Shown piece by piece: positions 35,901-48,758 of a DNA stretch of 64,000 bases. Every line of letters begins with the position of its first letter. The first letter of the stretch is position 1. The position numbers were made by a program, and so were the translations under genes. The DNA is from Franzmannia pantelleriensis (GTDB lineage: Bacteria; Pseudomonadota; Gammaproteobacteria; Pseudomonadales; Halomonadaceae), in NCBI RefSeq assembly GCF_900102875.1, contig NZ_FNGH01000001.1, forward strand, positions 1-64,000. Direction: 5' to 3'. Below the pieces are notes generated by a model that was given only the letters and a program-made list of their open reading frames with translations, did not search any database and was not told the DNA's origin.

Positions 35901-38900
35901 GACCCCAATGCCACCGACGAAGAGGGCAACTACCTCTCCGGCATCCGCGGGCCCGAAGACGAGATCAACGTCACGCAAACCACCCAGGGTTACCTCAGCT
36001 ACGGCAACAGCGAGTCGCTGGTGATCTACGGTGGCGACGGCGACGACGAGTTCATCGTCTACAGCAACAAGGCGCTGCTGCGCATGGAGGGCGAAGACGG
36101 CAACGACGACTTCATCATCCGCGCCTTCGTCGCCGAGGATGATATCGAGGTCTACGGCGGCGGCGGTGATGACAACATCGAGTACAACATCAATGCCCCG
36201 GTGAACATCGACGGCGGGGCCGGCTACAACACCATCACCGTGCTGGGTACCGAGCTCGACGACAACTTCGTGATCACCGAGGACGGGGTGTTCGGCGCCG
36301 GTCTCAATATCGGCTTCGACAACATCCAGCGGGTGCGCGTCGACTCCCTGGAGGGTGACGACACCTTCTTCGTGCTCAGCACCAGCCCGGATGTGGTCAC
36401 CGAGCTGATCGGCGGCGTCGGCAGCAGCAGCTTCGTGGTCGGCGGCGACGTCACCGGGCGCGTGGTCTCTGCCGATCCGGAAGGCCGCAGCAGCCTGGTC
36501 ACCCACACCATCAACTCCGAGGATGACGAGTACAACAGCCTGCTGGCGGACGGCTTGCCGGTAACCGTGGCCGACCCCTCCCGCGGCGCGGTGGTGGTCG
36601 ACGAGCCCGGCGGCGGTACCCGCGTGGTGCAGGGCGGCCCGGCGGATTTCTTCGACCTGTCGCTGGCGCTGCCCAAGGGTGACGAGTTCAAGGGGGCGGT
36701 CGTAACACTGACCGTGTCGGCGGCGATGGCCTCGACCAACCTGCGCAACAAGAGCGCCGATGCCGAGACCGTCAAGCTGGCTCTGGAAGAGGACGGCGAC
36801 TACCAGCAGGCGCTCACCGTCGACTTCGAATATCGCGGTGACGATGAGGGCTGGGTGGCCGTCGACGGCGATGGCAACCAGCAAAGCCTCTACGTCAAGG
36901 CCCCCGAGGACAGCCTGGCCAGCGGTACCCGCGAAGTGACGGTGAGCTACCTGGCGCGGGCGCAGATGGAGAACGACGGCGAGCTGCCCGAAGAACTCCA
37001 GGCGCTGGAGCAGCAGGCCATCAACAACACCATGGTGACCGTCTACGACAGCAGCCAGGGCGACCTGGTGTTCGGCGTGCCCAACGACGACCGGGTACAG
37101 GTGATCGAGGGTGACGACTTCGGTGAGCCGGGCAGCAGCTTCGAACTGCGCCTCTCGTCGGCACCTGAAGCGGGCGAGACCGTGACCGTCCACCTGGAGA
37201 TGGATGAGCGCCTGGAAGCGCAACTGCCGGATGGCACGTCGGTCTCTGACGGCATCGAGTTCACCGCTGATAACTGGGACCAGGCGCGCACCATCGAGCT
37301 CAGGGCGGTTGACGACGATGAGCGCCAGAACCGCCTGGATACCCGGGTCGGCTTCTCGGTCGAGTCCAGCGAGGGCAAGGATTCCGCCTTCCACGACGTC
37401 GAGTTCGGCAGCGTGCGGGTCAGCGTCTACGACAACGACAGCCCCTCGCTGGTGGTGCAGCAGACCGACGGCAGCACCCGGGTGACCACCGAAGGCGGCA
37501 GCGACAGCTACTTCCTGCGGCTCTCCCAGCAGCCCGACGACGAGGTCATGGTGCGTCTCAACAGCGACGGCCTGACCCGCTTCGACTGGCAGGACAATGC
37601 GCGCATTATCATGGACAGCGTGCTCGACGAGGATGTCGAGGTGACCGCGCTGCCAGGGGCCCACGCCGGCCCGCGGCTGGTGCTCGAGGAAGGCACCTGG
37701 CAGGACCTGGGGCTCAACGTGGGCATGTACCTGTCGCTCAGCGACGCCGAGGGAGCCCCCCTCGACGGTACCTTCCGGGTCAACAACGTCGAGGACGGCA
37801 CCCTGCACCTCACCAATGAGGCGCAGATCGACTTCGATGGACTGGATGAGCAAGCGCTGACCCTGACCCAGGCCGAGGCGCCGGCGGTGGTGTTCGATGC
37901 CGACAACTGGCATGAGCGCATCGAGATCGGCATCAGCGCCGATACCTACTACGTGCCGGCGGAGAATACCCTCAACGACATGAGCTTCCCGCCCCAGCTC
38001 AATGTCCTGGATCGCATCCAGGGGCCGCTGATCCTCGAGGGCGGCACCAGCAATACCGACCGCTCGCTCAACGAGGCGATCATGCTGCCCTATGAGCGAG
38101 CCGAGTACGTTGAGCGCGATGATGACGACACTGGCGTCGAGGAGGTGGAACCCGAGAACGAGGACACCAATACCCTGACGCTGCACGCCGACGCCAGCGT
38201 GGCAGACCTCGACGGCGTGCTGACCAGCACCTTCCTCAGCGGCCTCGGCATGGGCGAGGGCGATCCCCTCGAGCAGCGCTATCTCAATGCCCAGGGCGAG
38301 GAAGTCACCATTACCACCGAGCGCGGTATCGCCTACCACGGCTTCTCGGTGGTGGAACTGCTGCTGGGCACCGGCGACAACACCCTGGAGATCGATCTCG
38401 ACGTCGATGCCGTGGTCTACGACGGCGCCTATACGCTCGGTGAGAACAGCGCCGGTGAGGCCCTGCTGGTCCGCGACGACGGCGGCGACTGGTTCGACGA
38501 CGGCTTCCGCCGCGGCGACACCCTGCTGCTGGACGATCAGCGCGTCGATATCATGGATATCGATATCAATGGCAACCTGGTGCTGGATCGCCCCATGGCG
38601 GATGTGCCCCAGGCCTCGCGGGTCATCCGCGAGATGCCGCTCACCGCGGTACACGGCGGTGGCAACTCCTCGGGTAGCATGGGCGGCGACCATATCACCG
38701 TCAGCGGCGGTTACGATGCCCAGCTGCCGCTGATCGTGTTCGGCAATACCGAGCGCAGCGGTGAGCGCTACAGCGCCGATGGCAAAGGACCCAGCGAGCT
38801 GGCCCAGCCCTTTACCGAGGTTGGCAACAACGTGCTGGATGCCAGTGCCGCCACCGGCGGCGTGGTACTGGTAGGCGGTAGCGGCGATGACACGCTGATC

Positions 38901-41900
38901 GGCGGCAGCGGCAACGACCAGCTGTTCGGTGGCGGTGGCAACAACCTGCTGGACGCCAGCGCCGGTGGCAACAACCACCTCTACGGCAGCGGCAGCATCG
39001 ACGTCGATCTGTCATCGCGCCTCAGCCTGGCCGAGCGGGTCATCACGCTCTACAGCGCCGAAGCCGACGTCGAGCATGACGCCGGCGACCGCCTGGAGGC
39101 CGGTGATAGCACCCTGATCGGCGGCCACGGCGACGATATCCTGATTGGCGATCACGGCGAGATCCTGCTCGAGCCCGGCGCGGGGCCAAACGACCTGCGG
39201 CTGCTCGATAGCCAGCGAGTGATCGAAGTGCGCAGCACCGACCCTGCCAGCTATGGCAATAACCTCCTCGAGGTGCAGGGTGGTGACAACCTGCTGATCG
39301 GCGGTAGCGGCGCCAACCAGCTGTTCGGCGCCGAAGGCAATGACACCCTGGTCGGCAACCATGCCCGTGTGACCCTGGCCGAGACCAACCGGCTCACGGC
39401 GCTGGCCGAGTTGGTGACCCTGCCTAGCGAGCACGGTCGTGGTAGCGAACTGCACGGCGGCGGTGGCAGCAATGTGCTGGTTGGGGGCGAAGGCGGCGAT
39501 ATCATCACCGCGGGGCCGGCGGGCGGCGTCGATCCCGCGCTCGATCCGGCATTGCTGAGCTCGGTGGTGTTAGCCAATCACGGCACCCTGACCTGGGAGC
39601 AGGATGTGTTGGTCGAGGCCACCTCGCGCCTCGAGGCAGAGCAAGACGCGCCGCCCACGGACGCTGAGCTCAGGGCGCGTACCGGGGATAGCGACATCAC
39701 CCTGCACGGTGGCCACAACTTGGTGTTGGGTGGTGCCGGTAATGATCGTATCGAGATCCGTGACGCCGGCGACGACGCAGACAACATCGTGTTGGGCGGC
39801 CGAGGTGAAGCGCAGTGGGATGCCCACGGCACCCTGCGTTCGCTGGTGACGCTGACCCCCACCCTCGCCACACATAACAGCGTCAGCCTCGAGAGCGGCA
39901 ACCTGCTGTTCGCCGGTGGTAGCGGTAATGACAGCGTTAGCGTTACCCACGCCTCGACCACCAGTCGCCAACAGCTATTCGGCAACAACGTGGCGTTGGA
40001 CTGGAACGCTGACGGCATCTTGACCCGGGCGGAGAGCATCGCGACGGATCGCGGCGGCGATATGACGGCCGCGGTGAATGCCGGTGACGTGCTGCTGGTG
40101 GGCGGCAGCGGCGATCTCGACCTCGAGATCGACGCGGCGTCGCAGCACAGCCAGCATCGCATTCTGGCCGACAACGGTGTCATGCACTGGGATGACCACG
40201 GCACCCTGCGCGAGATGATCACCAGTCGTCCAGATCTGGTCGCTACGTCGACGATTGACATCAACGCCGGTGACACGACCCTGCTCTCCGGGGCGGGCGA
40301 TAGCGATATCACCATTGGCGATCAGGCCAGCGTGGTCGTCAGCCAGCCGGGGGAACTGGCGTGGAATGCGGCGGGCCACTTGGTCCGCGCAACCAGCACT
40401 GATCCTGGGGCTGCCGGCGATGCCGATGTCACCCTGGGGCACGGTGACAACCTGGTGATCGGCGGCGACGGGGATAACGTCATCACGGTGGGTGATGGCG
40501 ACAACCTGGTCGCCGGCGACCACGCCGAGGCGCTGTTCGACGCTCAAGGCACCATCGTCAGCTTCACCTCTATCCACCACGCCCACGGCGGTGATGACAC
40601 CATCACCACCGGTAGCGGCAATGACTGGGTGCTTGGTGGCTATGGTGGCGATACCATTACCGCCGCGGGTGGCGACAACGTCATCGTTGGCGACAACGGC
40701 CGCATCACGGCCCACGCCGACGGCACCCGCGCGCTGGTCGAGAGCCTCGATACGCGCCGTGCCACCGGTGGCTCTGATGTCATCACCACCGGCCACGGCG
40801 ACGACCAGATCATCGCCGGGGTGGGCAACGACGAGACAGAGAATGCCGGCGGCGAGACCGTGGTGATCGGCGATCTGGGCCATATCCGCAGCAATGCCGA
40901 TGGCCGCTATATCGAGGCCGAAACCGAGGCCAGCAACCTGGGTGGCAACAACACCCTGGTGGGCGGGGTGGATCGCGATATCCTGCTCGGCGGGCCGGGG
41001 AATGACTATCTCGACGGTGGCCAGGGCAACAATATCCTGCTCGGCGACTTCGGCCTCGTGACTCGCTTGGCCAGTGAGATCGTGGTCGAGACCAACAACC
41101 ACTTCGAGGGTGGTAACGACACCCTGATCCTGGGGCCGGGGCGCAGCGTCGCCATCGGCGGCGGCGGCAACGACGCCTTCGACGGTAACTTCGACCGCGA
41201 CACCATGATCGGCGACTTCGGTCGGGTGCGCATCGAGGTCAGCGGTGCCAGCGAGGCCGAGCAGGTCCAGGCCGTGGTGTCCCTGGCCCAGGGCCGCCTC
41301 GACCTGATCCGTCAGGTGCAGCAGGAGGTCTACACCGAGAATCAGTTCGAGGACGACACCGAGGAGCAGACGTCATCCTGGCAGGACCTGACGCCAGACG
41401 GCTTGTTCGGCGGTCGCTCGGTGGACAGCGTCGCTGCCGCGCGCACGGCTCAGCCGATCCAGGGACTGCAAGGGCTGCGCGAGCTGATCGACGACTGGGT
41501 CGAGCGTCAGCAGGGCGTTGGCCAGAGCAGCATGCGCGCGGCGATCGCCTCGGACGTGGCCGCCGAGATGGCCGAACCGGCAGCGCCAGACGCCTCACCC
41601 GGCGATGGCGATGCGGCGGTGACTGACGAGGCTGAGCAGCAAGAGACGCCGCCGGATGAGTCGGCTAGCGAGACGCCGGAGGACGTGCCCGCGGACGAGC
41701 AGCCCCAGGAGGAGCCGGTGCCGGACGCGGAAGATGACGTGATCGCCGAGTCGGACGACGCCAGCGCCGATGACCAGGACGAAGCAGCCCTCGAGGTGTC
41801 GTCTGCTGCACTGGGCAGCGGTCTGGCGGCGGCGCTGGCCTCAGCCAGTGGCTGGGGGATAGCCCGTCACGCGGGAGCCGGTGCACGTCATGGCGAGGCG

Positions 41901-41990
41901 CTCGCCGAGCTGCGGCGCCAGTGCGCTGCCAGCGACTGGCAGCGCGTATGCGAGTCCGACATTGATACCCACGATGAGGAGGAACAATGA
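14904..41990 (+). CDS. Giant LEPR-XLL / RTX-type repeat surface protein (9,028 aa)
   Basis: One uninterrupted frame covers 42% of the window. The ATG at 14904 is preceded by AGGAGAA at 14892-14898, and a longer upstream frame would overlap the sapC-like gene. No Sec signal peptide is visible. Instead a basic segment (residues 21-32) precedes FEGLEPRMLLSADP at 35-48, the LEPR-XLL motif of giant repeat proteins. Then follow RTX-like GGxGxDxL repeats (about 298-553), long Gly/Ala-rich repeats (about 2,200-4,600), a less repetitive lower-GC part to about 6,750, more RTX-like and Calx-beta-like sequence, and a C-terminal RTX module array (about 7,987-8,780). The end has an acidic linker, a short Ala/Gly-rich apolar stretch and two cysteines, the only ones in the protein. 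It is probably an exported adhesin or matrix protein that binds calcium; function is inferred. Confidence 0.93.
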   Translation: MNRPFQPTRTPLATLVAKLTRKRSRAQAQKSRFVFEGLEPRMLLSADPLSVALEAATDLEVRVVEEGNQKQLQFLDLNGENGPELIDGMALDDVISVEVEASNEDDRFSFNDDNGLLGNAEHLTFTFLGEEGGNNILDLTGAEALDIVFEGGEGDDRIVYGGEQGGDWVLDGDESGTGSFHQLSFSGVVEVELDDSDAEHRVASVNAGSFFAVLNEGSVLVGEEPEDDEYQGITLSGIHGLDGRADDTLSYIEYDEGVEVDLGSGTATGFSGDVSGFGILEGSNADDILVAGDEGVTLRGLGGNDILESGSGDDTLEGGSGENLLISRGGQDTFVSDDDALDSYLVERDSGDIVLSSSGDEATVNVGDTTVLSFSHHPEEMILGASAESEDMTLDASDYGLGGVTFQLQGANVTAIGSNQDDFFLLSASGSGEIHGGENSAEDQLRVEADVDMTLTDTTLSVDGDVLYVLENVELAILIGGEGDNELDASAFSGDVRLEGVAGANVLRGGDGDDLLIGGTGDDYLHGGGGNDVLFGNTGSNTLDGGGGENRVMGASSSFLELDDDQLLHADAVAEYELVWGGDPGEGIQFFYDDGVSETIAADAEALQIQRVLEATPGIGEGNVQVASGLNEDGNRFWTVRFLNDFMAVDDQGDFALALATLGVAQAGAGSASHDAVKKQSRQVGRDSLENIYGGILQAIEGGNTRLDASAFTGEVYLEGGSGNDTLIGGQGVSEFNAQAGDNHLIAGAGENIVIGGSGEDHLELRLEDAIDSVTLDGDTFTLEEDDASTESRYEAVERVSIIRQGDADLEVDAGGYHGVSAATALADLLSEEDFAAIFSAEDEPGEIEEESGDIQGALRLGVNVGEDGPQQILSLDGVRTLGNLAEVLGSADGVEAKIDLANGTLVLDAADDMTLEALGEGDQHDAVETLMNALDLSLGDVGREVVSAQLQAGGVLVAMQGAGNLTATGSGGNDRFELAAAGEHDLNGGGGDNTLVAHHVGDMTLDADSLSYVVEGSDDDELVTSLDSIASVVLEVADGAEAANIDASAFDGDSLTLRSSVAGELIGSSHVATDFMIEFTDGDLDDGDIEVDSRQSDSRVEAMVDAGDSVDDLSAFNPLTLRGNAELNYIWFGDVTLSDDADITLSESVTLAASGILTLDGASIATSGGHDLRMVADGVVLDGADLDIDGDLSIEAAGIEIHGGSHLQVDGALGLYAQPMGFFNGSPANGFVDVGLFDLSVVIGDARLEAAQIEIESRIDNPDRSLISFESGNSWVDMGLEAATDFVEGLSLFGSISTLIAESLIDIGVDAELIAEGDISIDSVIVLEASVEPTKSWGVGVSVSTLIAHSNVHVHGALHAKQGDININSRVDTTQSVTSAPSAVKGFAGSAAVAVLDTQSRAMVWDDARFTAETDDDGNGGTISVDARTLERSAVSSTSAAKKGKVGVAIAVGVENGITEAQLAGDVNADNAVRVNADTRREAISGTFFAYIPKSANGVSASAGTAAASPSGVVDGLEKSAKDLGKSPLVLLEPISSKLKGVVSGLFGDDDDKDSAAKTADSGEKLDLAAAVAVMVDNNVAEARLGLDEGRNRDGEIVGSRTTIEAGGDVEVEAVSAHRPSVNASGSAAKDSSAGTDSDNPLKRWLKSKVTDSKESSGSSEGSAKDKKSDNNSKDKEDKTATVAISGAVSVGIQDNVANASIEGNVDLDASGRIDVSADSLNEIDPTSLFHAGLYGEIRALADGDSDADHDSSDVVNSLDNGNTVMVEEGHAAGGEVGILYEFLGESRSDVDLSEEDFGDEERWERLGAPLEQQIPELIASIGNFFTSNFGLKGSFDSWTQATAEGEKLALAGAGNVFLLGQDSDARIRDGARLNVDGQDDLTALEDLAPNGEQHVSVNARSANDLFNLVGNIKLGGIGGSGSFNAEKWQKAIFSSPSLGSKAEGVAIGAAVTTNLLSSSTSAEIESGVVLLADSLDVSADTSSLVLGIGASGGKAEKLAFNASAVANVIDNLTHASIGDGALIKVGDGQVDEDGPALRVSANDETYAINITGSFSTSGQAAVGASAAVSVVDRDTRAWIGADSGDPIVSGPTGTLLVGGDLEVSAANSGVVVDLAVAGTKAGGKDSNSGGGSSGSSGDDPGKWPNNQANYDNVIAEFSGKAGQGGGSGGGGGEKGVAISGSAIVHVGEDNAVAAIRGLDKVAVDGDVAVTAYDSTHIGMLAGGAAISTSSKSVAVAGAAAVAIQGGETTAEVADIGDWRSGNLSIDAELDGWSVVAAAGLAVATGKKGAGVAGSAAALVSQRSVDARLLRLESGQLGELGISAMDASNTILIAGAVAAGGNAGIGAGAAVSFINHQVEALSEGVGSESDDGRVEVDSLSVVAESEALVISMAASVGVATGGKGFGLSGSVGVNLISSLTQAAVVESHYQLQGDDPDVEVLATDRASLFTLSGAVGVGTTAGVGAGISINYVGGNSAVLGGDEDAEAGVIARIEDSSLRGAQEVSVAGRTTGLNRSLSIGAGASKQVAGAGSVAVNWLENSVAAYVANSDIVADGDVSVASHQQGQLISITGAASGAGKVAIAGSVSVNLIDTSGLSMISGGSIVSGGDIDVVAVSDTLVVSVAFGGSAAGKVGLAGAVTVNLISGQAAAMVNDGAKLEADGDIRVAAEDRARVVVISIGAAGAGKVAGGISASTVQTDSLIMASVSGATLDAGGDVKVLAELADDDEEFDLASVGLGDVDLESEGVDGEDDLEEDEESDIAPRDTSNLDFSSGVINISIAGAAGGSAAGSAAVGLNWMRSSVRAEIVNGADVTAGGDVKVVADDSKGLVNFAFGVAGAGKVAGGGAIAFNYLGGDPTDPSRTIENTSDDDVDASEDMLMLDMGGDPVAYELGQIAAVIDDATVTANAGNVVVEAHSEAQLLNITAGGAAAGKVALAGSIGINFMQNDVLASIRNDAVVTAKAGAAADTGHVIVSASVAPIMINVSGAAAGAGAAGLAGASATNDMASILSARIDGADTRVSADGDIHVEAALLRVTDVPTIDVDEDLIPDEKDDEDRPATPEPGDQIWSFAMSGAGGGKLAVAGGLSLNWMRTNLEAVVADGAELDAGGDIRLQATDDLAMNAFTVGGAGAGAVALAGYFAYNYIGGDPDDPTSAAPNRLRAVIEGSATQVTAGGNVGLLAESTSQINAYTLGASVAGVAALSGTVSLNFTRKEILADVQGATVTADGSIAIVAQDESRIDSASAQLTVAVKGGAAGLSVAYHDIQNSIVAGSHNATLETTQAGAGGGDIVILADSRSSNWAVLAGVTYGTFGAGAGITGSSLINNTTQARIDGGTVTADGNLVVHADTHDTSSVKLGAVAAGAVAIGGSVGVDLMGSNSEAWIGGGAVVLARANGSARDVAFAWDGAPSEVGSSDDDGRERNLNWGEGDWDTEARSGVVVLATSHMEFLTLAVAVAGGVVGAVAANVTVDGINGHTQAWVDDAEVTSEADVVVRALHHADADSGGGSAALDLTAAATAGVDVNLFGHRTHAWIDGSDFAADTVMIKADGDIDVDARASVDFLSVVIGASVGGAGVAASGSASAVSMALDTRAYVKNVTLEARDINVNADNDISGRFIAGAAAGSGGVGIGASLAVGLFNSNASAEVLGATLDAARDIQVTANQQMDMGITVATGAAGLGAVAGAVSVMMADAETVARVVSMDGRHSVLEAGRDVAVTATTTTQINERGSPGDYLQAVGAAAVGGAGAGAAVDVMVLRERTSATVGSHSQITAGRHLDVQAELNRVLNSTAVAFSATAALSISGAISVVSLGSGLSQENQEEVEELGTLVHDTFADLQNGDYAMQEESSEGDSGVDDEDAFDEEEQAQFDDEFDTPSNAGNQNQANRESTNAALDDLTFDIDFDAASGQTVGDTAATVGRNVTLTAGGDIRVEAEEQLTIQAITGSGAVSGVASVGAAITVLELNGAVTATVGFGSELSAGGTVRVSSGFDANADLKGYGGSAALSVAVGGQAVTLIDRTEQLSYLESGNAPHQGVSILAASHLEVLAHAERDYTLTAAGGAIGQVAAGVSIGIAKLEGNTQAYLGSHTQVGDRSYEHGTVLASVSVSATSEDSVSLSVTAVAAGIGAGAGNRSQIDLMTGVNAWVDQHSSLYAGAVTVSATSRPELDSRTLGISAGGLAVGVSETLITMGMEIQARIGDMQGDASGIDILAETLDVRAALERPGSGHNINAKSTGASGALVGVDATVVRLRDTTEVLAELGSAAVVTLAANSTLQARREQALRDSLDGTIDPDQWEGWIGSPLEGLFELPDPDVWLKVTAVQESSMNAASDSYAGGLLAAGASINRLNQATETTARIGEGADVVSFGRVDVIARTDQVSRMDTLAGSGGLVSGVGVGVRAIADSSVLAEVADEASLTLVDTPDSISISALQRVDVDGQMRAVTGGLIAGAGAEGIYHLTLQTHARVAQGAGLLASEINATATTQAIKSDRVSNDQDNSRGEVYGVVAGGGASVEISVDLDTQVQIDDDASLRTSVSVSPDGSGGSLGSGDIVLRALNVLDLQDRASLTSGGLGAGGGITTHIDADQVLAQVQLGNAEIDAFGQFIASANSQADLNAVINMDVYGGASVSVGLAEIEFRPDNRVMINSANIRADGNIWLLAGRDSQFGYDEHRIAAAVDTFAGSALPFDDVDATISVLQNNQILVGGAAAVRGGGDINLFANDYDAVPMLARAKAVNWVNSSLGAIDSLLGGGGFENTGGSTSAESIGGVTVNGLVETGISRDQRLVITLADGVDLDALAALDPTDPDDFQAFRDAIVAEGDFDDIGFSVGFGRTDSELFQALYEAEERLQAYVGIGSSRAVEQFQSEVERLKQKLVDLGLGSTTDQGQIVPENREVVEIQLDDIDATAGRIRVLADYLVGDGELISPTDSNITVLNKLPARLVVNDITINEQLGGVYLNGSIMADDDDINERNQLPVGMIGTHLADFEYNGDPNAQPSPQITIVNSYANAGQIGDLDAADMVYAGLDVDSGYDLYLTEFDRDFVDPSVLVQGSVYAPLADALIAAGQDFELDAEEGNPDASIVVRGLALQATDNITINSSRYTVGPLPEAVIRDFTYGWVESADGSFYNSPNFSLPSWLSNIFDGFGFLEELEDDEDDLQELFDALENWTYTSAARSPSLQAANISINADWVNVNGHIKSGIDEFDIVITQADADQIRNANRGSTFLLTEASQNSGVNVAYNPETGRIEVDDVIVRGGNVHIEGQVLNTGDGLIDVMAGHGHINIDNQTDYALDLAELNVVNTGAGNLTIIDRSLETGEESRFETGFDEESGLFVVKRTGEDDVTFTRDELIAHDDFAFSPEEGLRYAFEVMQVKETRSEYTIKSSSWAGLDALASDPPDDSSSDTTELDRYIKPAGSNEKGYVYRDSDEESRYTYSRDSQNEVSTPTAEEEGNGVVYVVGHSGDPDDAPDGAIMLDDDSYIPEGYYATSGMNHVSTNWIGTKTYEQTFSRSTVSHVTHQHDIAADRVVDINFFGKSEGLIQVESKGDVVLSDSLQNTTGETRIDTQGSIRFASDNPGNWQVSGVDVILEADQGIGRMQPGLDDEPDIETLDVLTHGGLVNASSERGDILLANAISEPADLRIGNISAERGDVYLESSRSILGDAGASTHINAQSITLQTDGDIGSEGGDLSPLRINSSDRGSNVAATERMADVLTVQAGGDVHLEEVEGDLRVFSLVASGDVHLTIDSSLIDVNEIVEIDERTYDELKDGVWQALSLTSDDRANDAIENLVARRTSEYQAYWEYRLATSDDRIGDLVYGAEYELIQLNDDVSVLVQRNDDGDIVSAADLAPSGSEDSATMHQFLGAGSTAITTLERGDVLQNPSIDLDSLDGDLRFAVEALLAQGGGLMAANALAGVASGETLTYRKVVGYDPDSSITLNAQEREATAASLRQNLRDDGVPEEQIEAGVAAGIETIEQSRTVRYHELHATFYGAEVPDDERPPEYYDQSWQASIDEDAVRSSVKVWTEQELLSLVGEGLLKETTSTQFEVQEPNIEAGGDVHIQAGVNIGSIDDYVVIDLSRGDDQDASFGALTEQERVLLSAAERNDISYLEGPLIDAQASFRNLQETSSGDTELELVRSDGGDWGELTLDAGDWLYLNGDTLNYTANGIYFEVVAVDGSTLSLRTAAAEVIAEEQRDIQVGQVMLDPTDQVNDGKTLSHVVIDQRSDIQMALSATSAVYLAAGGSIYVGSEGDMTIAELEAGQSDALDGNIRIKVRGEILSRDASLIGNGAILEAATGAIGTEQQRVELDLGSGLITARAQEAIWLHAVESANIASIFSERGDISVSAVNHIVDGLSHDLLKVLAQQGDIHLDAQEGSVGSIDANNPLELEARLGAIYVNSAQDVALWTPDADMRVGKIDAASGRVELGADLSIVSANPHHDASEHGYDPLAENIHADEILMQTVLGGIGTVSQDLITRSQGRLDVEADSGGSGAGSVYITELSDQLLLGTVSASGGVAGGALAFITSLGSIQNGLREDESYNLLSANVHLIAADDIGRPDKVITSRIGNLQGSSTTGVVYLDNAGHLTVNEGGVQAGGDIVLTSNSPMTISSEGDVVSENGTIRLYAMESADPDDGTDTITFTNDVQLVAEKAILVYAADGIIVEHGVTLEAKERIEFGVETHESTHGAPDDTLAVSHINGTLLAPELKLVGGNEKGQVWELGEDLLIQVPVVSIDTGDGDNVLTLGGRIEADELTLSGGQDDDHVTFDGDHRIREQLDVQLGEGDDVLRVHGSIDATGGKMIFDGNAGDDDLMLHADALLGEIALLGGGGDNLLTVVELNDRDELVTLDGGDGSDVYRIVTRQDANANYEITVKDSGAINDGVDYLYIEGRGYDGYDGNLDRDLNHVGNDAEDLFLIRRNFIARMEGDGDSGVEEGAAVERINYDDTMNGRVTVNGHEGNDVFVVDDTSALMTLDGGNGNDRFQIGQIFTDDPNATDEEGNYLSGIRGPEDEINVTQTTQGYLSYGNSESLVIYGGDGDDEFIVYSNKALLRMEGEDGNDDFIIRAFVAEDDIEVYGGGGDDNIEYNINAPVNIDGGAGYNTITVLGTELDDNFVITEDGVFGAGLNIGFDNIQRVRVDSLEGDDTFFVLSTSPDVVTELIGGVGSSSFVVGGDVTGRVVSADPEGRSSLVTHTINSEDDEYNSLLADGLPVTVADPSRGAVVVDEPGGGTRVVQGGPADFFDLSLALPKGDEFKGAVVTLTVSAAMASTNLRNKSADAETVKLALEEDGDYQQALTVDFEYRGDDEGWVAVDGDGNQQSLYVKAPEDSLASGTREVTVSYLARAQMENDGELPEELQALEQQAINNTMVTVYDSSQGDLVFGVPNDDRVQVIEGDDFGEPGSSFELRLSSAPEAGETVTVHLEMDERLEAQLPDGTSVSDGIEFTADNWDQARTIELRAVDDDERQNRLDTRVGFSVESSEGKDSAFHDVEFGSVRVSVYDNDSPSLVVQQTDGSTRVTTEGGSDSYFLRLSQQPDDEVMVRLNSDGLTRFDWQDNARIIMDSVLDEDVEVTALPGAHAGPRLVLEEGTWQDLGLNVGMYLSLSDAEGAPLDGTFRVNNVEDGTLHLTNEAQIDFDGLDEQALTLTQAEAPAVVFDADNWHERIEIGISADTYYVPAENTLNDMSFPPQLNVLDRIQGPLILEGGTSNTDRSLNEAIMLPYERAEYVERDDDDTGVEEVEPENEDTNTLTLHADASVADLDGVLTSTFLSGLGMGEGDPLEQRYLNAQGEEVTITTERGIAYHGFSVVELLLGTGDNTLEIDLDVDAVVYDGAYTLGENSAGEALLVRDDGGDWFDDGFRRGDTLLLDDQRVDIMDIDINGNLVLDRPMADVPQASRVIREMPLTAVHGGGNSSGSMGGDHITVSGGYDAQLPLIVFGNTERSGERYSADGKGPSELAQPFTEVGNNVLDASAATGGVVLVGGSGDDTLIGGSGNDQLFGGGGNNLLDASAGGNNHLYGSGSIDVDLSSRLSLAERVITLYSAEADVEHDAGDRLEAGDSTLIGGHGDDILIGDHGEILLEPGAGPNDLRLLDSQRVIEVRSTDPASYGNNLLEVQGGDNLLIGGSGANQLFGAEGNDTLVGNHARVTLAETNRLTALAELVTLPSEHGRGSELHGGGGSNVLVGGEGGDIITAGPAGGVDPALDPALLSSVVLANHGTLTWEQDVLVEATSRLEAEQDAPPTDAELRARTGDSDITLHGGHNLVLGGAGNDRIEIRDAGDDADNIVLGGRGEAQWDAHGTLRSLVTLTPTLATHNSVSLESGNLLFAGGSGNDSVSVTHASTTSRQQLFGNNVALDWNADGILTRAESIATDRGGDMTAAVNAGDVLLVGGSGDLDLEIDAASQHSQHRILADNGVMHWDDHGTLREMITSRPDLVATSTIDINAGDTTLLSGAGDSDITIGDQASVVVSQPGELAWNAAGHLVRATSTDPGAAGDADVTLGHGDNLVIGGDGDNVITVGDGDNLVAGDHAEALFDAQGTIVSFTSIHHAHGGDDTITTGSGNDWVLGGYGGDTITAAGGDNVIVGDNGRITAHADGTRALVESLDTRRATGGSDVITTGHGDDQIIAGVGNDETENAGGETVVIGDLGHIRSNADGRYIEAETEASNLGGNNTLVGGVDRDILLGGPGNDYLDGGQGNNILLGDFGLVTRLASEIVVETNNHFEGGNDTLILGPGRSVAIGGGGNDAFDGNFDRDTMIGDFGRVRIEVSGASEAEQVQAVVSLAQGRLDLIRQVQQEVYTENQFEDDTEEQTSSWQDLTPDGLFGGRSVDSVAAARTAQPIQGLQGLRELIDDWVERQQGVGQSSMRAAIASDVAAEMAEPAAPDASPGDGDAAVTDEAEQQETPPDESASETPEDVPADEQPQEEPVPDAEDDVIAESDDASADDQDEAALEVSSAALGSGLAAALASASGWGIARHAGAGARHGEALAELRRQCAASDWQRVCESDIDTHDEEEQ
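15795..16563 (+). repeat. N-terminal RTX-like blocks in the giant gene
   Basis: Two clusters of Gly/Asp nonapeptides encode GGNDILESGSGDDTLEGGSG (from 15795) and GGDGDDLLIGGTGDDYLHGG (from 16419). A third short cluster, GGSGNDTLIGG, is near 17065. These match the GGxGxDxUx pattern that binds calcium in beta-rolls of exported RTX proteins. Confidence 0.75.
21540..28760 (+). repeat. Gly/Ala-rich tandem protein repeats, about 54 aa each
   Basis: The encoded sequence repeats a unit of the form GAAGAGKVAxAGSxSxNxx...GAxxxAGGDIxVxA. In the clearest stretch (about 22620-23070) successive units are about 54 residues (162 bp). Units diverge and gain insertions elsewhere, including an acidic TSP3-like stretch DVDEDLIPDEKDDEDR starting at 24033. 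The pattern suggests a long beta-solenoid fibre. Limits are approximate. Confidence 0.65.
38862..41240 (+). repeat. C-terminal RTX module array of the giant gene
   Basis: Starting with GGSGDDTLIGGSGNDQLFGG, RTX nonapeptides alternate with a second motif of the form GDxGxhxxDxxGxhxxhxS. About 12 copies of the second motif are visible, for example GDNGRITAHADGTRALVES, GDHAEALFDAQGTIVSFTS and GDLGHIRSNADGRYIEAET. Spacing is irregular, about 55-80 residues. The array ends in GDFGRVRIEV before the acidic tail. Confidence 0.75.
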
Positions 41991-42028
41991 GCCAGCAAGG
42001 CAGGTATCGGGAGCGCCGATGCAGCTAG
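41987..42028 (+). CDS. Possible 13-residue relay ORF
   Basis: An ATG overlaps the giant gene's stop as ATGA and has the strongest ribosome site in the neighbourhood (GAGGAGGAACA just upstream). The frame encodes MSQQGRYRERRCS and stops at 42028, ten bases past the start of the GAF-HlyD gene. It may serve only to hand ribosomes from the giant gene to the next one. Whether the peptide has a role is unknown. Confidence 0.35.
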   Translation: MSQQGRYRERRCS

Positions 42029-43878
42029 ACGATCAGGCAACGCGGGCGATTCAGGCCTGGCACGCCCAGGCCGAGAATGCCCAGGCATGGCTCGCCCGCC
42101 ACTGCGCCTCGGCGCCGCAGCCGGAAGGCGCCCGCATCAGCGAAGGTGTCGTGCTGTGGCGCCAGGAGAGCGACTGGCTCCCGGTGGCGCTATGGCCAAG
42201 CGGCGCCGAGGGGCAGACGCTGCTGGGACTGGCCGATGATGTGCGCCAGGCGGCACGCGGGCTGGTCAGCCAGCTCGATGATGGGCATCTGGGTATCGGC
42301 TATCCGGTGCGTGATCCGGCGGATGACCAGCAGGGCACAGGCGCCTTGGTCGGCGCCGTGGCGCTTCGCGTGGCGTTACCGGCCTCACTGCACGACGACC
42401 AGCGCGCCCAGGCCGCCTTGATGCCGTTGATGCAGCGCCTAGAGGAGGGCGTGGCAGTACTCGAGCGCGATCTGGTTCAGCGCACCCATCGCGATACCCG
42501 ACGGCGCCAGCAGACGCTGGCCAGGCAGCTCGAGTTGCTCGCGGCGGTGCTTGCCGAAAATCGCTTCAAGGCCGCCAGCATGCAGCTGGTGACACGCCTT
42601 GCGACCCTGTTCAACGCCGAGCGAGTGACTCTGGGCTGGCAGCGTGGCGCACGCTGCCGCGTGGTGCAGATCTCCCACAGCGCACAGTTCAACCGCAAGA
42701 TGAACCGCATCCGTGCCACCGAGCTCGCCATGAGCGAGTGCCTCGATCAGCGCGCCAGCGTTGCCGTACCGCCCCCCGAGGAGGCCGCCGACCATGCCCG
42801 TCGAGTCAGCCACGCGCACCGTCGACTGCAGGAGATGACCGGCCTGCCCAGTGTGCTGACGCTGCCCTGTCTCGACGACGGCAAGCCGCTTGGCGCGGTC
42901 ACCCTGGAGCGTGAAGCGGCATTCAGCGCGGAGGAGGCGGATGCCCTCGAGAGCCTGATGGCGCTGTGCACTCGCGCGCTGGAGGAGAAGCGTCTCAACG
43001 ACCGGCCGCTGCCGGTCAAGGCGGCGGTGGCGGTGGGCCAGCAGTGCGCGCGGCTGGTCGGTCCGGGTTATCTCGGCTACAAGCTCACGGCGATCGTGCT
43101 GGGCGCGGCGGTGGCCTTCGCGACCCTGGCCACCGGGACGGAGCGGGTGGCGGCCGACGCCACCCTGGAGAGCCTCGAGCAGCAGGTGCTGGCAGCACCG
43201 TTTCGCGGCTATATCGATGCGGCGCTGGTGCGTCCCGGCGATACCGTGGCGATGGGCGAGGTGCTGGCCGAGATGGACACCCGCGAGCTGGTGCTCGAGC
43301 AGTTGCAGTGGCAGAGCGAGCTGGCCAAGCTGGCGCGTCAGGAACAGCAGCAGCGCGCCGCCGGCGAGCGTGCCGCGGTCAATGTGATCGGTGCTCAGCA
43401 GGATCAGGCCCAAGCGCGCCTGGAGCTGGTCGAATCGCGCCTGCAGCGCGCCTCACTGCAGGCACCGTTCGCCGGGCGTGTGCTCAGTGGCGACCTTACC
43501 CAGCGACTCGGCGGCGTGGTCGAGCAGGGCGAAGAACTGTTTCGTCTCTCGCCGCTGGACGCCTACCGCATCGAGCTCGAGGTGCCCGAAGGGCGCATCG
43601 ATGCGCTGCGCGAAGGGCAGAAGGGCGAGCTGGTGCTGGCGGCAATGACCGGCGAGCGTTTCGCCTTCGAGGTCGAGCGCCTGACCCCGCAGACCCGCAG
43701 CGTCGATGGCAGCAATCGTTTCGTGGTCGAAGCCAGCCTGGAGAGCGACGACCGCGAGCTGCGGCCCGGCATGCAGGGGGTGGGCAGGATCGAGGTGGGC
43801 GAGGCGCGCCTGATCAGCATCTGGACCCGCGAACTGGTCGACTGGCTGCGGCTGACGCTATGGCGATGGTGGGGATAA
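42019..43878 (+). CDS. GAF domain / membrane anchor / HlyD-type adaptor fusion
   Basis: The 619-residue product joins a cytosolic sensor-like half to a periplasmic adaptor. Residues about 168-325 fit a GAF domain (LEREAAFSAEEADALESL at its end). One membrane helix is at about 355-373 (LTAIVLGAAVAFATLA). From 375 on it has the barrel-sandwich and hairpin layout of HlyD/RND membrane-fusion proteins (APFRGYIDAALVRPGDTV and SLQAPFAGRVLSGDLTQRLGG). The ATG at 42019 is used because GGGAG lies 5 bases upstream; the longer frame would run inside the giant gene. It sits between the giant gene and the M50 gene. It may link a cytosolic signal or the motor to the TolC-like channel, by inference. Confidence 0.87.
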   Translation: MQLDDQATRAIQAWHAQAENAQAWLARHCASAPQPEGARISEGVVLWRQESDWLPVALWPSGAEGQTLLGLADDVRQAARGLVSQLDDGHLGIGYPVRDPADDQQGTGALVGAVALRVALPASLHDDQRAQAALMPLMQRLEEGVAVLERDLVQRTHRDTRRRQQTLARQLELLAAVLAENRFKAASMQLVTRLATLFNAERVTLGWQRGARCRVVQISHSAQFNRKMNRIRATELAMSECLDQRASVAVPPPEEAADHARRVSHAHRRLQEMTGLPSVLTLPCLDDGKPLGAVTLEREAAFSAEEADALESLMALCTRALEEKRLNDRPLPVKAAVAVGQQCARLVGPGYLGYKLTAIVLGAAVAFATLATGTERVAADATLESLEQQVLAAPFRGYIDAALVRPGDTVAMGEVLAEMDTRELVLEQLQWQSELAKLARQEQQQRAAGERAAVNVIGAQQDQAQARLELVESRLQRASLQAPFAGRVLSGDLTQRLGGVVEQGEELFRLSPLDAYRIELEVPEGRIDALREGQKGELVLAAMTGERFAFEVERLTPQTRSVDGSNRFVVEASLESDDRELRPGMQGVGRIEVGEARLISIWTRELVDWLRLTLWRWWG

Positions 43879-43881
43879 CGC

Positions 43882-46032
43882 ATGGCCGGTCCGCTATTCA
43901 GCCAGCAGTGGCACCGCGTCGCCGAACTGCGGTTGCGGCTGCGTCAGCACACCAGCCTGCACCGCCACGAGTACCGCGGCGAACCCTGGTACGTGCTCTA
44001 CGACAACATCACCGGCCAGGTGCATCGCTTCACCCCGGAGGCCTATCAGATCATCGGACGGCTGGACGGGCGCCGAACCCTGGGCGAGATCTGGGAGCAG
44101 GTCAGCCACTCGCTGGGCGATGCCATGCCTACCCAGCACGAGCTGGTACAGCTGATTGGCCGTCTCCACGGGGCCAACGTGCTGGCCGGCGACGGCGAGG
44201 TGGATGTCGACGAGCTGGCGCGGCGGCAGACTCGGCAGCGTCGCAGCAAGTGGCTGCAGATGCTGCGCTCTCCGCTGGGCATCCGCATTCCGCTGCTCGA
44301 CCCGGAGCGCTTCGTGGCAGCGACCTACCCGCTGGTCAGGCCGTTGATCAGTCCGATCGGGGCGCTGCTGTGGCTGATCACGGTCGCCGCCGCCCTGGTG
44401 CTGGCTGCGATGCACTGGTCGTCACTCACCGACAACCTGGCCGACCGCGTGCTGAGCGTCGGCAACATTCTGCTGCTGGCGCTGATCTACCCGCTGATCA
44501 AGGCCATCCACGAGCTCGGCCACGCCTGGACCACCAAGGACGCCGGCGGCGAGGTGCACGAGATCGGCATCATGCTACTGGTGTTCTTCCCGGTGCCCTA
44601 CGTCGACGCCAGTGCGGCGGCGGCCTGCCCCGACAAGTCGCGGCGCATGCTGGTGGGCGCGGCGGGCATCCTGGTGGAAGTCTTTCTGGCGGCGCTGGCG
44701 ATGTTCGTATGGGCCATGGCCGAGCCCGGCATGCTGCGGGCGCTGGCCTTCAACGTGATGCTGATTGCCGGGGTCTCGACGCTGTTGTTCAACGGCAATC
44801 CGCTGCTGCGCTTCGATGCCTACTACGTGCTGGCCGACTACCTCGAGATCCCCAACCTGTTCAACCGCGCCAACCAGCAGGTCACCTATCTGGTCAAGCG
44901 CTACCTGCTCGGCCGCCGCGAGGTCACCAGTCAGGCCGAGTCGCGTCGCGAGAGTGCCTGGCTGGTAGTCTATGCGCTGGCGTCGTTCGCCTATCGGCTG
45001 GTGATCATGGTGTTCATCGCGGTGTTCGTCGCCACCCGCTATCTGTTCGTGGGGATCCTGCTGGCCCTCTGGTCGATCTCCATGACCCTGCTGTTACCTC
45101 TGCTCAAGATGCTCAAGACCATGATGGCCGATGATGCTTTGGAAGGCTCGCGTGGCAAGGCCTGGGGATGGCTGCTGGCCGCGCTGACGGCGGTGGGGGT
45201 AGCGCTGTTCGCCGTGCCGGCGCCCTATGCCACCAACGTGCATGGCGTGGTGGATACCGCCACGCCCAATCAACTGAGGCTGGGCGCCAGCGGTGAGCTC
45301 ATCGCGCGCCATGTCGACAACGGCGCCGAGGTGCAGCGCGGTGAGAGGCTGATGGAGCTGGCCGCGCCGGAGCTGAGTACCGAGGTGGCACTGCTCGAGG
45401 CACAGCGCCGTGAGACACGGGAGCAGCTTACCGCCAGCGTCGGCGATGCCGGGGAGTTGGCGATCCTGCGCGAGACCCTGGCGCTGGTGGAGCGTCAGCT
45501 CGAGGATGCCGAGCAGCGCGTCGAGGCCACCCGCGTGGTCAGCCCGCGGGACGGCCTGCTGCTGATGCCCGAGGGTGAACCGCCGCTGGGCATGCACCTG
45601 GAGCGCGGCGCCGAGGTCGGGGTGGTGGCACGCCCCGAGGATCTGCGCATCCGCGCGCTGTTGCCGACCCATCGTGCCGAAACGGTGCGCGACGATGCCG
45701 AGACGGTCTCTCTGCGCCTGCCCGGCAGCGCCGAGACGCTGGCCTCGCGCCTGCAGTGGGTGTCACCCAGCTCGACGTTCGAGGTGCCAAGCGAAGTACT
45801 GACCCGCGACGGCGGTGGTCAGGTCGCCCTCGATCCCCAGGCCGAGCAGCCGCTGACGGCTTTTCGGCGCCACTACCTGGCTGATTTCAGCGCCGACGCG
45901 CTGGTCGAGCATGTGGCAATGCCCTCGCTGGGCAGCCGCGTACACGTGCGCATCGAGCATCCTGCCGAGCCGTTGGGCTACCGGCTGTGGCGCGGACTAC
46001 GCCGGGCCTTCCTGAGGCTGTTCGATGTGTGA
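43882..46032 (+). CDS. PqqD-like / M50 metalloprotease / HlyD fusion
   Basis: The 716-residue product has three parts. Residues about 28-105 resemble a PqqD/RRE fold (YVLYDNITGQVHRFTPEAY, LDGRRTLGEIWEQV), which in RiPP pathways binds leader peptides. The middle is a polytopic membrane domain with the zinc protease motif HELGH at 210-214 and a second motif NPLLRFDAYY with Asp312, the M50/site-2-protease arrangement. The C-terminal third (from about 445) is a HlyD-type barrel-sandwich with coiled coil. The domain order agrees with M50-HlyD proteins known from peptide-export loci. It could recognise and clip the LEPR leader of the giant protein. The gene starts 3 bases after the previous stop. 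Confidence 0.88.
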   Translation: MAGPLFSQQWHRVAELRLRLRQHTSLHRHEYRGEPWYVLYDNITGQVHRFTPEAYQIIGRLDGRRTLGEIWEQVSHSLGDAMPTQHELVQLIGRLHGANVLAGDGEVDVDELARRQTRQRRSKWLQMLRSPLGIRIPLLDPERFVAATYPLVRPLISPIGALLWLITVAAALVLAAMHWSSLTDNLADRVLSVGNILLLALIYPLIKAIHELGHAWTTKDAGGEVHEIGIMLLVFFPVPYVDASAAAACPDKSRRMLVGAAGILVEVFLAALAMFVWAMAEPGMLRALAFNVMLIAGVSTLLFNGNPLLRFDAYYVLADYLEIPNLFNRANQQVTYLVKRYLLGRREVTSQAESRRESAWLVVYALASFAYRLVIMVFIAVFVATRYLFVGILLALWSISMTLLLPLLKMLKTMMADDALEGSRGKAWGWLLAALTAVGVALFAVPAPYATNVHGVVDTATPNQLRLGASGELIARHVDNGAEVQRGERLMELAAPELSTEVALLEAQRRETREQLTASVGDAGELAILRETLALVERQLEDAEQRVEATRVVSPRDGLLLMPEGEPPLGMHLERGAEVGVVARPEDLRIRALLPTHRAETVRDDAETVSLRLPGSAETLASRLQWVSPSSTFEVPSEVLTRDGGGQVALDPQAEQPLTAFRRHYLADFSADALVEHVAMPSLGSRVHVRIEHPAEPLGYRLWRGLRRAFLRLFDV

Positions 46033-46044
46033 GGAGGCTGGCAC

Positions 46045-48003
46045 ATGGCGCTAGTCAAGCTGCCCGGGGATGTGATCGCGCGTCCCGAACGACGTATCCA
46101 GCCGCCGGGTGCGCTGGAGCCGGCCTGGCAGCGGCTCAGCGCGCGGCTGGCCCTGCCCGGCTGGCTGCGACTGTTGGTGCGGCGGGCCGCACTGCCGATG
46201 ATCCACCGCCACGCACGGCGTTTACGCGAGCTGGACCCGGCGGCGTTAAACGCCTACCGCGATGACCTGCGGCGGCGGCTGCTGGCCGGTGGACTCTCGT
46301 GGCGCCGCACCCTCGAGGCGTTCGCACTGGTGCGTGAGGTGGCTAGACGCGAGCTGGGTATGGCCCATCACGACGTCCAGCTGCTGGGCGGTCTCACCCT
46401 GCTGGCCGGTCAGGTGGCAGAGATGCACACCGGCGAGGGCAAGACCCTCACCGCGACCCTGCCGGCGGCCACCGCGGCACTGGCCGGCATTCCGGTACAC
46501 GTGGTCACCGTCAATGACTACCTGGCCGCGCGTGACGCCGAATCGATGCGCCCGGTGTATGCCGCATTGGGGCTCAGCGTCGGCGATATCGTCCACGAGC
46601 TGAGCCCGGCGCAGCGGCGCGACGCCTATGCCGCCGACGTGGTCTACTGCACCAACAAGGAGCTGCTGTTCGACTACCTGCGCGACACCCAGCAGCTAGG
46701 CCGCGATCGCCACCCGCTGATGGCCCATGCCGCCAGGCTCGAAGGGCGCCTGGAGCGCCGTCGGCTGCTGCTGCGCGGCCTGCACTTTGCCATCGTCGAT
46801 GAGGCCGACAGCGTGATGCTCGACGAGGCGGGAACGCCGCTGATCCTGTCCGGCCCGGCGCCCCAGGATGCCCTCGACGTGGCGTTGCTCGACGAGCTCC
46901 TGGCCCTGGCTGGCGATTTCGAGGACGGCCGCGATTTCGTCCGCGAGCAGGGGGGGATTCACCTCACCGAGGCTGGTCGTCAGCGCCTCGAGCAGCAGGC
47001 CGAGACCCTGCTTGCCGGCCGCGGCAACCGCAGCGGCTGGCTGGGCCGCTCTCGGCGCGAATGGCTGCTGCAACAGGCACTGGTGGCCCGCTACCACTTC
47101 CAGCGTGACCATCACTACCTGGTGCGCGACGGCAAGGTGCTGATCATTGACGAGCATACCGGCCGGGTGATGGCCGATCGCAGCTGGGAGAAGGGGCTGC
47201 AGCAGATGATCGAGCGCCTCGAGGGCTGTGCGCCCAGCGATCCCAACGTCACCTTGGCTCGCCTTACCTACCAGCGCTTCTTTTGTCGCTACCAGCACCT
47301 TGCCGGGATGACCGGCACCGCTCATGAGGTGCGCCATGAGCTGTGGCGCAGCTATCGCCTTAGGGTGGTACCGATCCCCCCGCATCGGCCTAGTCGCCGG
47401 CGCTGGCTGGGGCACACCTGCGTCGACAGCGTGAGCCGCAAATGGCAGCGCGTGGCGGCGCATGCGCGTCGCCGCGCCGAGGCCGGACAGCCGGTGCTGA
47501 TTGCCACCGTGACCCTCGGCGAGTCGGAAGCGCTGAGTGCCGAACTGTCCGACCAGAGCATTGCACACACCGTGCTCAACGCGCGCCAGGATGCCGAGGA
47601 AGCGGCAGTGGTGGCCAGCGCCGGCGAGTCAGGCGTGATTACCGTGGCCACCAGCATGGCCGGGCGCGGCACCGACATCGCCCTCGACGCGGCGGCCAGG
47701 GATGCCGGCGGCCTGCATGTGATCATCGCCGGACACCACGACGCCGCGCGGGTCGACCGCCAGATCGCCGGGCGCTGCGCCCGCCAGGGGGATCCTGGCA
47801 GCGTCGAATTCATCGTCTGCGGCGAGGAGGCACTGCTCGACGAGCTGGAGGATGACTGGCAGCCGGTAGCGGGGCGCCTGGTGAAGCGGCTGAGGCGTGC
47901 CCAGGCGCGACGCGAGGCGCGCCAGGCCCGTGCGCGGGCGCGCTTGACGCGTAGCGACTGGCGTGAAGACGATCTGCTGGGATTCAGCGGAAAAGGCGAA
48001 TAA
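46045..48003 (+). CDS. SecA-like preprotein translocase ATPase (accessory, reduced)
   Basis: The 652-residue protein is a clear SecA relative but shorter than housekeeping SecA (about 900). Seen are the Walker A motif MHTGEGKT (127-134), VTVNDYLAARDAE, VDEADSVMLDEAGTPLILSG (Walker B at 251-255), IDEHTGRVM, MTGTA, TSMAGRGTDIAL and IAGRCARQGDPGS. Canonical SecA has DEARTPLIISG and GRSGRQGDPGS, so two conserved stretches are altered. The protein ends soon after the second ATPase domain, with a basic tail, and lacks the C-terminal zinc-binding segment. GAGGAGG lies before the ATG. Lying among adaptor genes, it is probably the dedicated motor for the giant protein. Confidence 0.92.
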   Translation: MALVKLPGDVIARPERRIQPPGALEPAWQRLSARLALPGWLRLLVRRAALPMIHRHARRLRELDPAALNAYRDDLRRRLLAGGLSWRRTLEAFALVREVARRELGMAHHDVQLLGGLTLLAGQVAEMHTGEGKTLTATLPAATAALAGIPVHVVTVNDYLAARDAESMRPVYAALGLSVGDIVHELSPAQRRDAYAADVVYCTNKELLFDYLRDTQQLGRDRHPLMAHAARLEGRLERRRLLLRGLHFAIVDEADSVMLDEAGTPLILSGPAPQDALDVALLDELLALAGDFEDGRDFVREQGGIHLTEAGRQRLEQQAETLLAGRGNRSGWLGRSRREWLLQQALVARYHFQRDHHYLVRDGKVLIIDEHTGRVMADRSWEKGLQQMIERLEGCAPSDPNVTLARLTYQRFFCRYQHLAGMTGTAHEVRHELWRSYRLRVVPIPPHRPSRRRWLGHTCVDSVSRKWQRVAAHARRRAEAGQPVLIATVTLGESEALSAELSDQSIAHTVLNARQDAEEAAVVASAGESGVITVATSMAGRGTDIALDAAARDAGGLHVIIAGHHDAARVDRQIAGRCARQGDPGSVEFIVCGEEALLDELEDDWQPVAGRLVKRLRRAQARREARQARARARLTRSDWREDDLLGFSGKGE

Positions 48004-48020: not shown

Positions 48021-48758
48021 GTGAAGGCAACGCACAGCACTCTCAAATATTGGGTCTTGTCATTGGCGGCGCTGGCCGCTGCCCCCGTGGTACACGCCGA
48101 ATCGCTGGGCGTGGAGGACGTCAGCTGCCTGGTCGAGCCGGGTCGTCTGGCGACCCTCTCCAGTCAGCTGCCCGGCGTGATCGACGAGATTCAGGTCGCC
48201 CCCGGCGAAAGCGTCAGCCGTGGCGATACGCTGTTCACCCTCAAGCGCGAAGTGGAGCAGGCCAGCCGCAACCTGGAGCTGGCGCGCGCCGAGTATGCCG
48301 CGCGGCGCCTGCAGCGCAACCAGCGCATGATCGAGCAGGGCATGCTCAGCGACAGCGAGGCTGATGAACTCAACACCGACCTGCGCGTGGCTCGGCTGCA
48401 GGGAGAGCTGGCGGCCGCCCAGTTCGACCAGCGCACCAGCCAGGCCCCCTTCGACGGCGTGATTACCCAGCAGCACGCTGAAGAGGGGGAGTATATCGAT
48501 GCCACGCCGGTACTCGAGCTGGCCCAGCTCGACCCGCTGCAGATCGAGGCGGTGCTGCCGCTGGCGGCCTACGGCACGGTGGCGGTGGGAGACGTCTACG
48601 AGGTGGCGCTGGCGAGCCCCGTGGAGCGGCGGATCAGCGCCGAGGTATCGCAGGTCGACAGCATCATCGATGCGTCCAGTGGCACCTTCGTGATTCAGCT
48701 GCGTCTCGACAACCCGGATGGCGAGATTCCCGCCGGCATCAACTGTCGGCTGTCATGA
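48021..48758 (+). CDS. Periplasmic HlyD/RND-type adaptor protein
   Basis: The 245-residue product starts at GTG with GAGGAG eight bases upstream. Residues 1-25 are a Sec signal peptide (YWVLSLAALAAAPVVHA, cleavage near 25). The mature part has the biotinyl-lipoyl-like hairpin GVIDEIQVAPGESVSRGDTLF, a short coiled coil (residues about 70-135), SQAPFDGVITQQHAEEGEYI and a beta-barrel. This is a short membrane-fusion protein. It is the third adaptor-type protein in the cassette and the only fully periplasmic one, so it may bridge the membrane-anchored adaptors to the TolC-like channel. It ends the + strand cassette, 18 bp from the convergent lacI-family gene. Confidence 0.88.
   Translation: MKATHSTLKYWVLSLAALAAAPVVHAESLGVEDVSCLVEPGRLATLSSQLPGVIDEIQVAPGESVSRGDTLFTLKREVEQASRNLELARAEYAARRLQRNQRMIEQGMLSDSEADELNTDLRVARLQGELAAAQFDQRTSQAPFDGVITQQHAEEGEYIDATPVLELAQLDPLQIEAVLPLAAYGTVAVGDVYEVALASPVERRISAEVSQVDSIIDASSGTFVIQLRLDNPDGEIPAGINCRLS

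Follow-up and report, generated by a model that had tools for sequence, protein, structure and literature searches.

Parts of the system described here are known from elsewhere. The daptide and epipeptide proteases (NF041824, NF058609) carry a PqqD-like region followed by an M50 core and presumably remove the leader from small RiPP peptides; their model has no HlyD half. RTX adhesins are exported by type I secretion (HlyB-HlyD-TolC), which employs HlyD adaptors and TolC for a huge RTX-repeat substrate, and in the accessory Sec system (SecA2/SecY2) of the serine-rich giant adhesins, a second SecA is reserved for a surface protein of very large size. A planctomycete cell-surface signal (PF07595; Studholme 2004), a short N-terminal ExLExRxLLA motif, is thought to be an export signal, according to the pertinent passage of a later paper (PMC8567305). 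In the literature searched (preprints and most subscription journals were outside the search), the N-terminal domain LEPR-XLL is mentioned without an export function, and we found no description of the present system or of how giant proteins with a LEPR leader exit the cell.

The window, i.e., the whole stretch of DNA analysed (64,000 nt of the Franzmannia pantelleriensis contig NZ_FNGH01000001.1), contains an ORF at 43882..46032 (+), confirmed exactly, which encodes a protein of 716 aa from an ATG start. The sequence-only reading had assigned to this one chain a PqqD-like fold, an M50 membrane protease with HELGH and NPLLRFD motifs, and a HlyD-type part, and all three assignments were borne out. 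The HlyD_3 profile matches aa 552-632 above cut-off (E=1.4e-5), while the M50 profile (aa 206-308, E=3.7e-6) just misses its cut-off with 26.9 bits (cut-off 27.2). For PqqD (PF05402), the match to the window protein is weak (aa 37-100, E=0.06, 14.1 bits, cut-off 23.4); TIGR04353, of the PqqD family, matches with E=0.003. Among 57 aligned homologues, Pfam matches were obtained for PqqD in 28 (E<=0.01, best 1.3e-8), for M50 in 52 and for HlyD_3 in 48. A profile of the family matches the solved PqqD structure 3g2b over positions 18-102 (E=0.0011) and, in the same search of PDB structures, many adaptor proteins. Judged by these profiles, the PqqD-like N-terminus of the window protein appears weak but real, the match being solid in its relatives. 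The NCBIfam model of the daptide intramembrane protease, NF041824, aligns with aa 21-414 (E=3.7e-42) at 144.8 bits (cut-off 300).

The HELGH zinc/catalytic motif occupies aa 210-214 (44509..44523, +) and the NPLLRFD motif, the third zinc-ligand motif of M50, aa 306-312 (44797..44817, +). H210, E211, H214, N306, P307, F311 and D312 are invariant in the 57-sequence alignment, and the protease site is therefore under selection. What defines an M50 or site-2 protease, a membrane-located HExxH (here in the predicted TM2) and a downstream aspartate of the NPxxxFD type (D312), is present, with its key residues invariant.

Alignment-averaged hydropathy and charge, read together with the helices of an AlphaFold2 model, predict seven TM segments with the N-terminus inside and the C-terminus outside. 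The segments lie near residues 156-176, 193-212, 259-281, 284-305, 365-385, 387-408 and 430-448, where two long hydrophobic stretches were split into TM pairs by judgement, guided by the AlphaFold2 helices. Counts of K and R place the N-terminus inside, together with the loops that follow TM2, TM4 and TM6; all that comes after residue 448 is placed outside. The predicted arrangement is, accordingly, a cytosolic PqqD-like domain (aa 18-105; 43933..44196, +; supported by the family profile, Pfam and AlphaFold2 secondary structure), an M50 membrane core (aa 141-445; 44302..45216, +) with HELGH at the cytosolic end of TM2, and a periplasmic HlyD/MFP part (aa 446-712; 45217..46017, +). In the AlphaFold2 model (57 sequences; mean pLDDT 87.7, pTM 0.63), aa 18-103 show the PqqD-like order of strands and helices, the membrane core is helical, and the best Foldseek matches of the HlyD part in the PDB are MexA-type adaptors (E ~1e-12). 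The HlyD_3 score, the MexA-like fold and the C-out topology together are those of a membrane fusion protein, a family defined by periplasmic lipoyl, hairpin and barrel domains. Two outcomes that would speak against the sequence-only reading, a cytosolic HlyD part and the lack of any profile match to PqqD, were not what we obtained: HELGH was placed at the membrane and the HlyD side in the periplasm.

Upstream of this gene lies an ORF for a giant RTX-repeat protein (14904..41990, +), about 9028 aa from ATG 14904. Its full frame of 9090 codons encodes three cysteines, and the protein is the presumed substrate. After a basic, non-hydrophobic N-terminus, the giant carries the LEPR-XLL leader domain NF012209, a 24-residue N-terminal domain, with the sequence LEPRMLLSAD (15000..15071, +). 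The profile scores E=1.9e-8 and 33.6 bits on the giant, and E=1.6e-8 and 37 bits in a search of the genome (cut-off 17 bits), in which this match is the only one. The giant proteins that adjoin M50-HlyD genes often have 7,000-14,000 residues and one common start signal, (basic stretch)-E/F-x-LEPR-[MLVIYF]-LLSAD, without a hydrophobic core (maximal 17-residue hydropathy at most 1.3). Their C-termini, where a type I substrate would carry its secretion signal, vary. In several of them (e.g., window 41700-41990; L075, L078, L079, L087), the last part is a charged tail preceded by a brief hydrophobic segment that is rich in A/G and contains a G-W pair; this recurrent end is possibly an anchor or a second signal. 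In one gammaproteobacterial genome (G343; contigs C44, C56, C84), two M50-HlyD loci accompany five LEPR open frames, the shortest of 5,806 aa and the longest of 14,112 aa.

Between the giant gene and the PqqD-M50-HlyD gene, a GAF domain, a TM segment and a HlyD adaptor are encoded in a single gene (42019..43878, +; 619 aa from ATG 42019, which is the best start; the longer GTG start overlaps the giant). Downstream follow a SecA-like ATPase of 652 aa (46045..48003, +) and a HlyD-type adaptor of 245 aa, HlyD2 (48021..48758, +), in which an N-terminal export signal was recognised by eye. On the other side of the giant gene are a TolC outer-membrane channel (11702..13075, +; TIGR01844, E=1.6e-93), a SapC-family protein (14003..14806, +; PF07277, E=3e-70) and an unannotated protein of 291 aa (13056..13931, +) with no Pfam or NCBIfam match. 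The AlphaFold2 model of the latter (pLDDT 84.5) predicts a PT-barrel fold: it matches ABBA/PT-barrel prenyltransferases, including the peptide prenyltransferases PagF, LimF, PatF and KgpF, and K106-x-Y108, R48 and R204 are conserved. This protein may modify the giant, or may be a re-used fold. Scanning the main ORFs of the window between 0.2 and 59.7 kb turned up no ABC exporter. The locus is flanked by an operon for sugar-acid catabolism and by housekeeping genes (gyrA-like, aroA-like, cmk-like and one for an S1-like protein).

When one genome per species was scanned (84,980 species), more matches were obtained than are used here; the best 80 loci come from Halomonadaceae, Vibrio, Oceanospirillales, Rhodobacteraceae, Bradyrhizobium, Betaproteobacteria, Desulfobacterota, Nitrospiraceae and a Phycisphaeraceae MAG. 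The order giant, GAF-HlyD, PqqD-M50-HlyD, SecA-like and HlyD is conserved in Gamma-, Alpha- and Betaproteobacteria, Desulfobacterota and others. Among these best 80 loci, GAF-HlyD occurs in 77, SecA-like in 69 (directly downstream of the M50 gene or about one gene off), HlyD2 in 56, SapC in 14 and a nearby TolC in five; no recurrent ABC exporter was seen in them. The distances between partner proteins follow those between the M50 proteins (Mantel r=0.91 for GAF-HlyD, 0.67 for HlyD2 and 0.64 for SecA-like; all p=0.001), part of which is shared species history. The expectation that M50-HlyD relatives are confined to RiPP or bacteriocin loci and do not act on proteins of giant size was not borne out, since the best 80 relatives are found in an operon adjoining giant-protein genes, and since LEPR proteins co-occur with M50-HlyD in two phyla, as detailed below.

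A tree of 66 M50-HlyD proteins resolves two well-supported clades, A (including the window protein) and B. SecA-like is present in 48 of 55 scored clade A rows versus none of nine clade B rows. In clade B loci, the giants begin with LEPRMMFDGA, LEPRVMLDGA or LEPRLLLDAA; clade B is a second version of the same putative leader-receptor pairing. Individual clade B loci (L059, L063, L065, L067 and others) lack SecA-like and lie near giants starting with LEPRMMFDGA or LEPRLLLDAA. Within the genus of the window, the locus is patchy, because three of four congeners (G002, G003, G004) have no M50-HlyD; the fourth (G001) has one, with 93% identity. In about 30 related loci, a small DUF3467 gene (PF11950) intervenes between giant and GAF-HlyD (e.g., L087:7583-7915 and L138:7709-8089), and in L090, DUF3467 is fused to a PT-barrel-like domain; DUF3467 is absent from the genome of the window. 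A SecB-like chaperone role for DUF3467 was considered and rejected (hhalign against 24 SecB sequences, probability 0.2%).

The association of LEPR giants with M50-HlyD is evident from the conserved operon and from co-occurrence in two phyla, which agree with each other. NF012209 matches (E<=0.01) were obtained in 42 of 47 genomes with a clade A locus, mostly in ORFs of 4,000-13,000 aa. In an even draw of 321 gammaproteobacterial genomes (thresholds: LEPR E<=0.001, M50 protein E<=1e-30), LEPR was detected in 24, the M50 protein in 48 and both in 22 (Fisher p=1e-18, kinship ignored). Among 149 Planctomycetota, 32 have the M50 protein and seven have LEPR, all seven being among the 32 (p=1.2e-5, kinship ignored). 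In 11 genomes, including the window's, both occur on one contig; the ORFs lie within about 5 kb of each other in ten and about 13 kb apart in one. Clustering and co-occurrence alone do not establish the leader as the substrate of M50-HlyD.

The SecA-like partner is a paralogue of SecA; a normal SecA is encoded elsewhere in the same genome. Walker A (GEGKT), DEAD and motif VI (QIAGRCARQG) are intact and nearly invariant across the family, and 41 SecA-like proteins form one clade apart from canonical gammaproteobacterial SecA (support 100). The family profile aligns solely to residues ~13-607 of Bacillus subtilis SecA, retaining both nucleotide-binding folds, the preprotein cross-linking domain and the beginning of the scaffold helix. 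The two-helix finger, the helical wing and the C-terminal linker, placed by the general domain borders of SecA, are lacking; similarly short C-termini are found throughout the SecA-like proteins. With its profile ending at residue ~607, the protein is not a full SecA translocase. It is missing from seven of the 76 loci (among the best 80) that are not cut by a contig end and from the whole sister clade, and it is therefore best seen as an accessory, not an obligatory, motor. The idea that its presence tracks substrate size was dropped: in three genomes whose loci are without SecA-like, the LEPR proteins have 1.5-2.3 kaa, but G293, likewise without SecA-like, has one of 7.5 kaa.

We think that PqqD-M50-HlyD is probably the inner-membrane subunit that recognises, processes and docks LEPR-XLL giants in a TolC-type export route dedicated to them. 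Binding of the giant's N-terminal leader, which is basic and non-hydrophobic, would fall to the cytosolic PqqD-like domain, and the M50 site would cut this leader at or near LEPR-x-LLSAD upon membrane entry. Together with TolC and the other two HlyD adaptors, the periplasmic HlyD part would lead the chain outward. In most members, the SecA-like ATPase, which lacks the finger that pushes into SecY, would serve as a motor or keep the chain unfolded; SecYEG and the membrane core of M50-HlyD itself are both candidates for the inner-membrane pore. That recognition, cleavage and hand-over are united in one polypeptide, as had been suggested, fits the architecture, the predicted topology and the dedicated LEPR-XLL leader on the adjoining giant; the hand-over, however, would not be the work of this chain alone, as its fixed partners comprise two further HlyD proteins and, in most loci, a truncated SecA paralogue, with genes for TolC and SapC close by in some loci. 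Cleavage of the leader is our deduction. More tentatively, the locus may stand for a new class of TolC/HlyD-dependent protein secretion in Gram-negatives that operates without an ABC, RND or MFS transporter and is driven, where it is present, by a finger-less SecA paralogue; PqqD-M50-HlyD would gate it by reading and cutting the LEPR leader, and the same pair of signal and receptor would explain the planctomycete signal.

The SecA paralogue could also be taken to indicate export in two steps, in which the giant passes SecYEG with SecA-like as an accessory SecA, M50-HlyD only trims a signal remnant, and HlyD and TolC carry the protein on from the periplasm to the exterior. Such a route agrees with the presence, in 69 of the best 80 loci, of a paralogue whose Walker A, DEAD and motif VI are preserved, and with the resemblance of HlyD2 to an RND-type soluble adaptor; we consider it unlikely nevertheless, as the giants have no hydrophobic Sec-type signal and SecA-like ends before the two-helix finger and wing that are used on SecY.

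Many M50 proteases, of the RseP type, work in signalling, and the partner gene's GAF domain hints at sensing; M50-HlyD might thus be a regulator, i.e., an intramembrane protease that responds to export stress and frees a factor, its HlyD part serving as periplasmic sensor. This is improbable in view of the tight co-occurrence with leader-bearing giants, the nature of PqqD-like domains, which are peptide chaperones, and the best 80 loci, in which no anti-sigma or membrane-bound factor recurs. The resemblance of the PqqD and M50 part to daptide proteases, along with the PT-barrel prenyltransferase-like protein in the locus, would rather evoke a protease that matures a modified peptide, or a domain cut out of the giant, as in RiPP pathways, leaving transport to other genes. 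We regard this as likewise improbable: no small precursor (daptide precursors included) or typical RiPP enzyme recurs as a neighbour in the best 80 loci, the PT-barrel gene occurs in only six loci among the matches listed, and the HlyD fusion plus two more HlyD genes point to export.

If the role that we favour for PqqD-M50-HlyD is correct, the LEPR giants of 8,000-14,000 residues in many of the genomes searched gain a candidate leader receptor and protease, and a testable export route. A SecA-like motor working without the SecY-contacting parts would be a new way of powering export through TolC, and PqqD-M50-HlyD would also be a candidate receptor of the ExLExRxLLA surface signal known from planctomycetes. 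The LEPR leader resembles this signal but scores sub-threshold in Pfam (E 0.03-0.18), and a check in one Phycisphaeraceae genome gave no match over cut-off. We therefore rejected the notion that PF07595 and LEPR-XLL are the same family; the sub-threshold matches make a common origin a lead.

Compared with the systems introduced above, the locus shares with accessory Sec a second SecA next to a very large protein, whereas no SecY2 or Asp proteins were seen here, SecA-like lacks the helical scaffold/wing region, and the hosts are Gram-negatives with HlyD and TolC. It shares with the daptide and epipeptide proteases the PqqD-M50 order, but the window protein scores below both curated cut-offs, bears a HlyD half and has a giant protein as its neighbour. 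From type I secretion it differs by the N-terminal leader, the SecA-like ATPase, the three HlyD-type proteins, one of them fused to a protease, and the lack of an ABC exporter (main window ORFs, best 80 loci). Since there is no daptide-level score and no ABC exporter in the locus, it lacks the defining features tested of both RiPP and type I classes, and would work like a cross between type I secretion and the leader processing of RiPPs.
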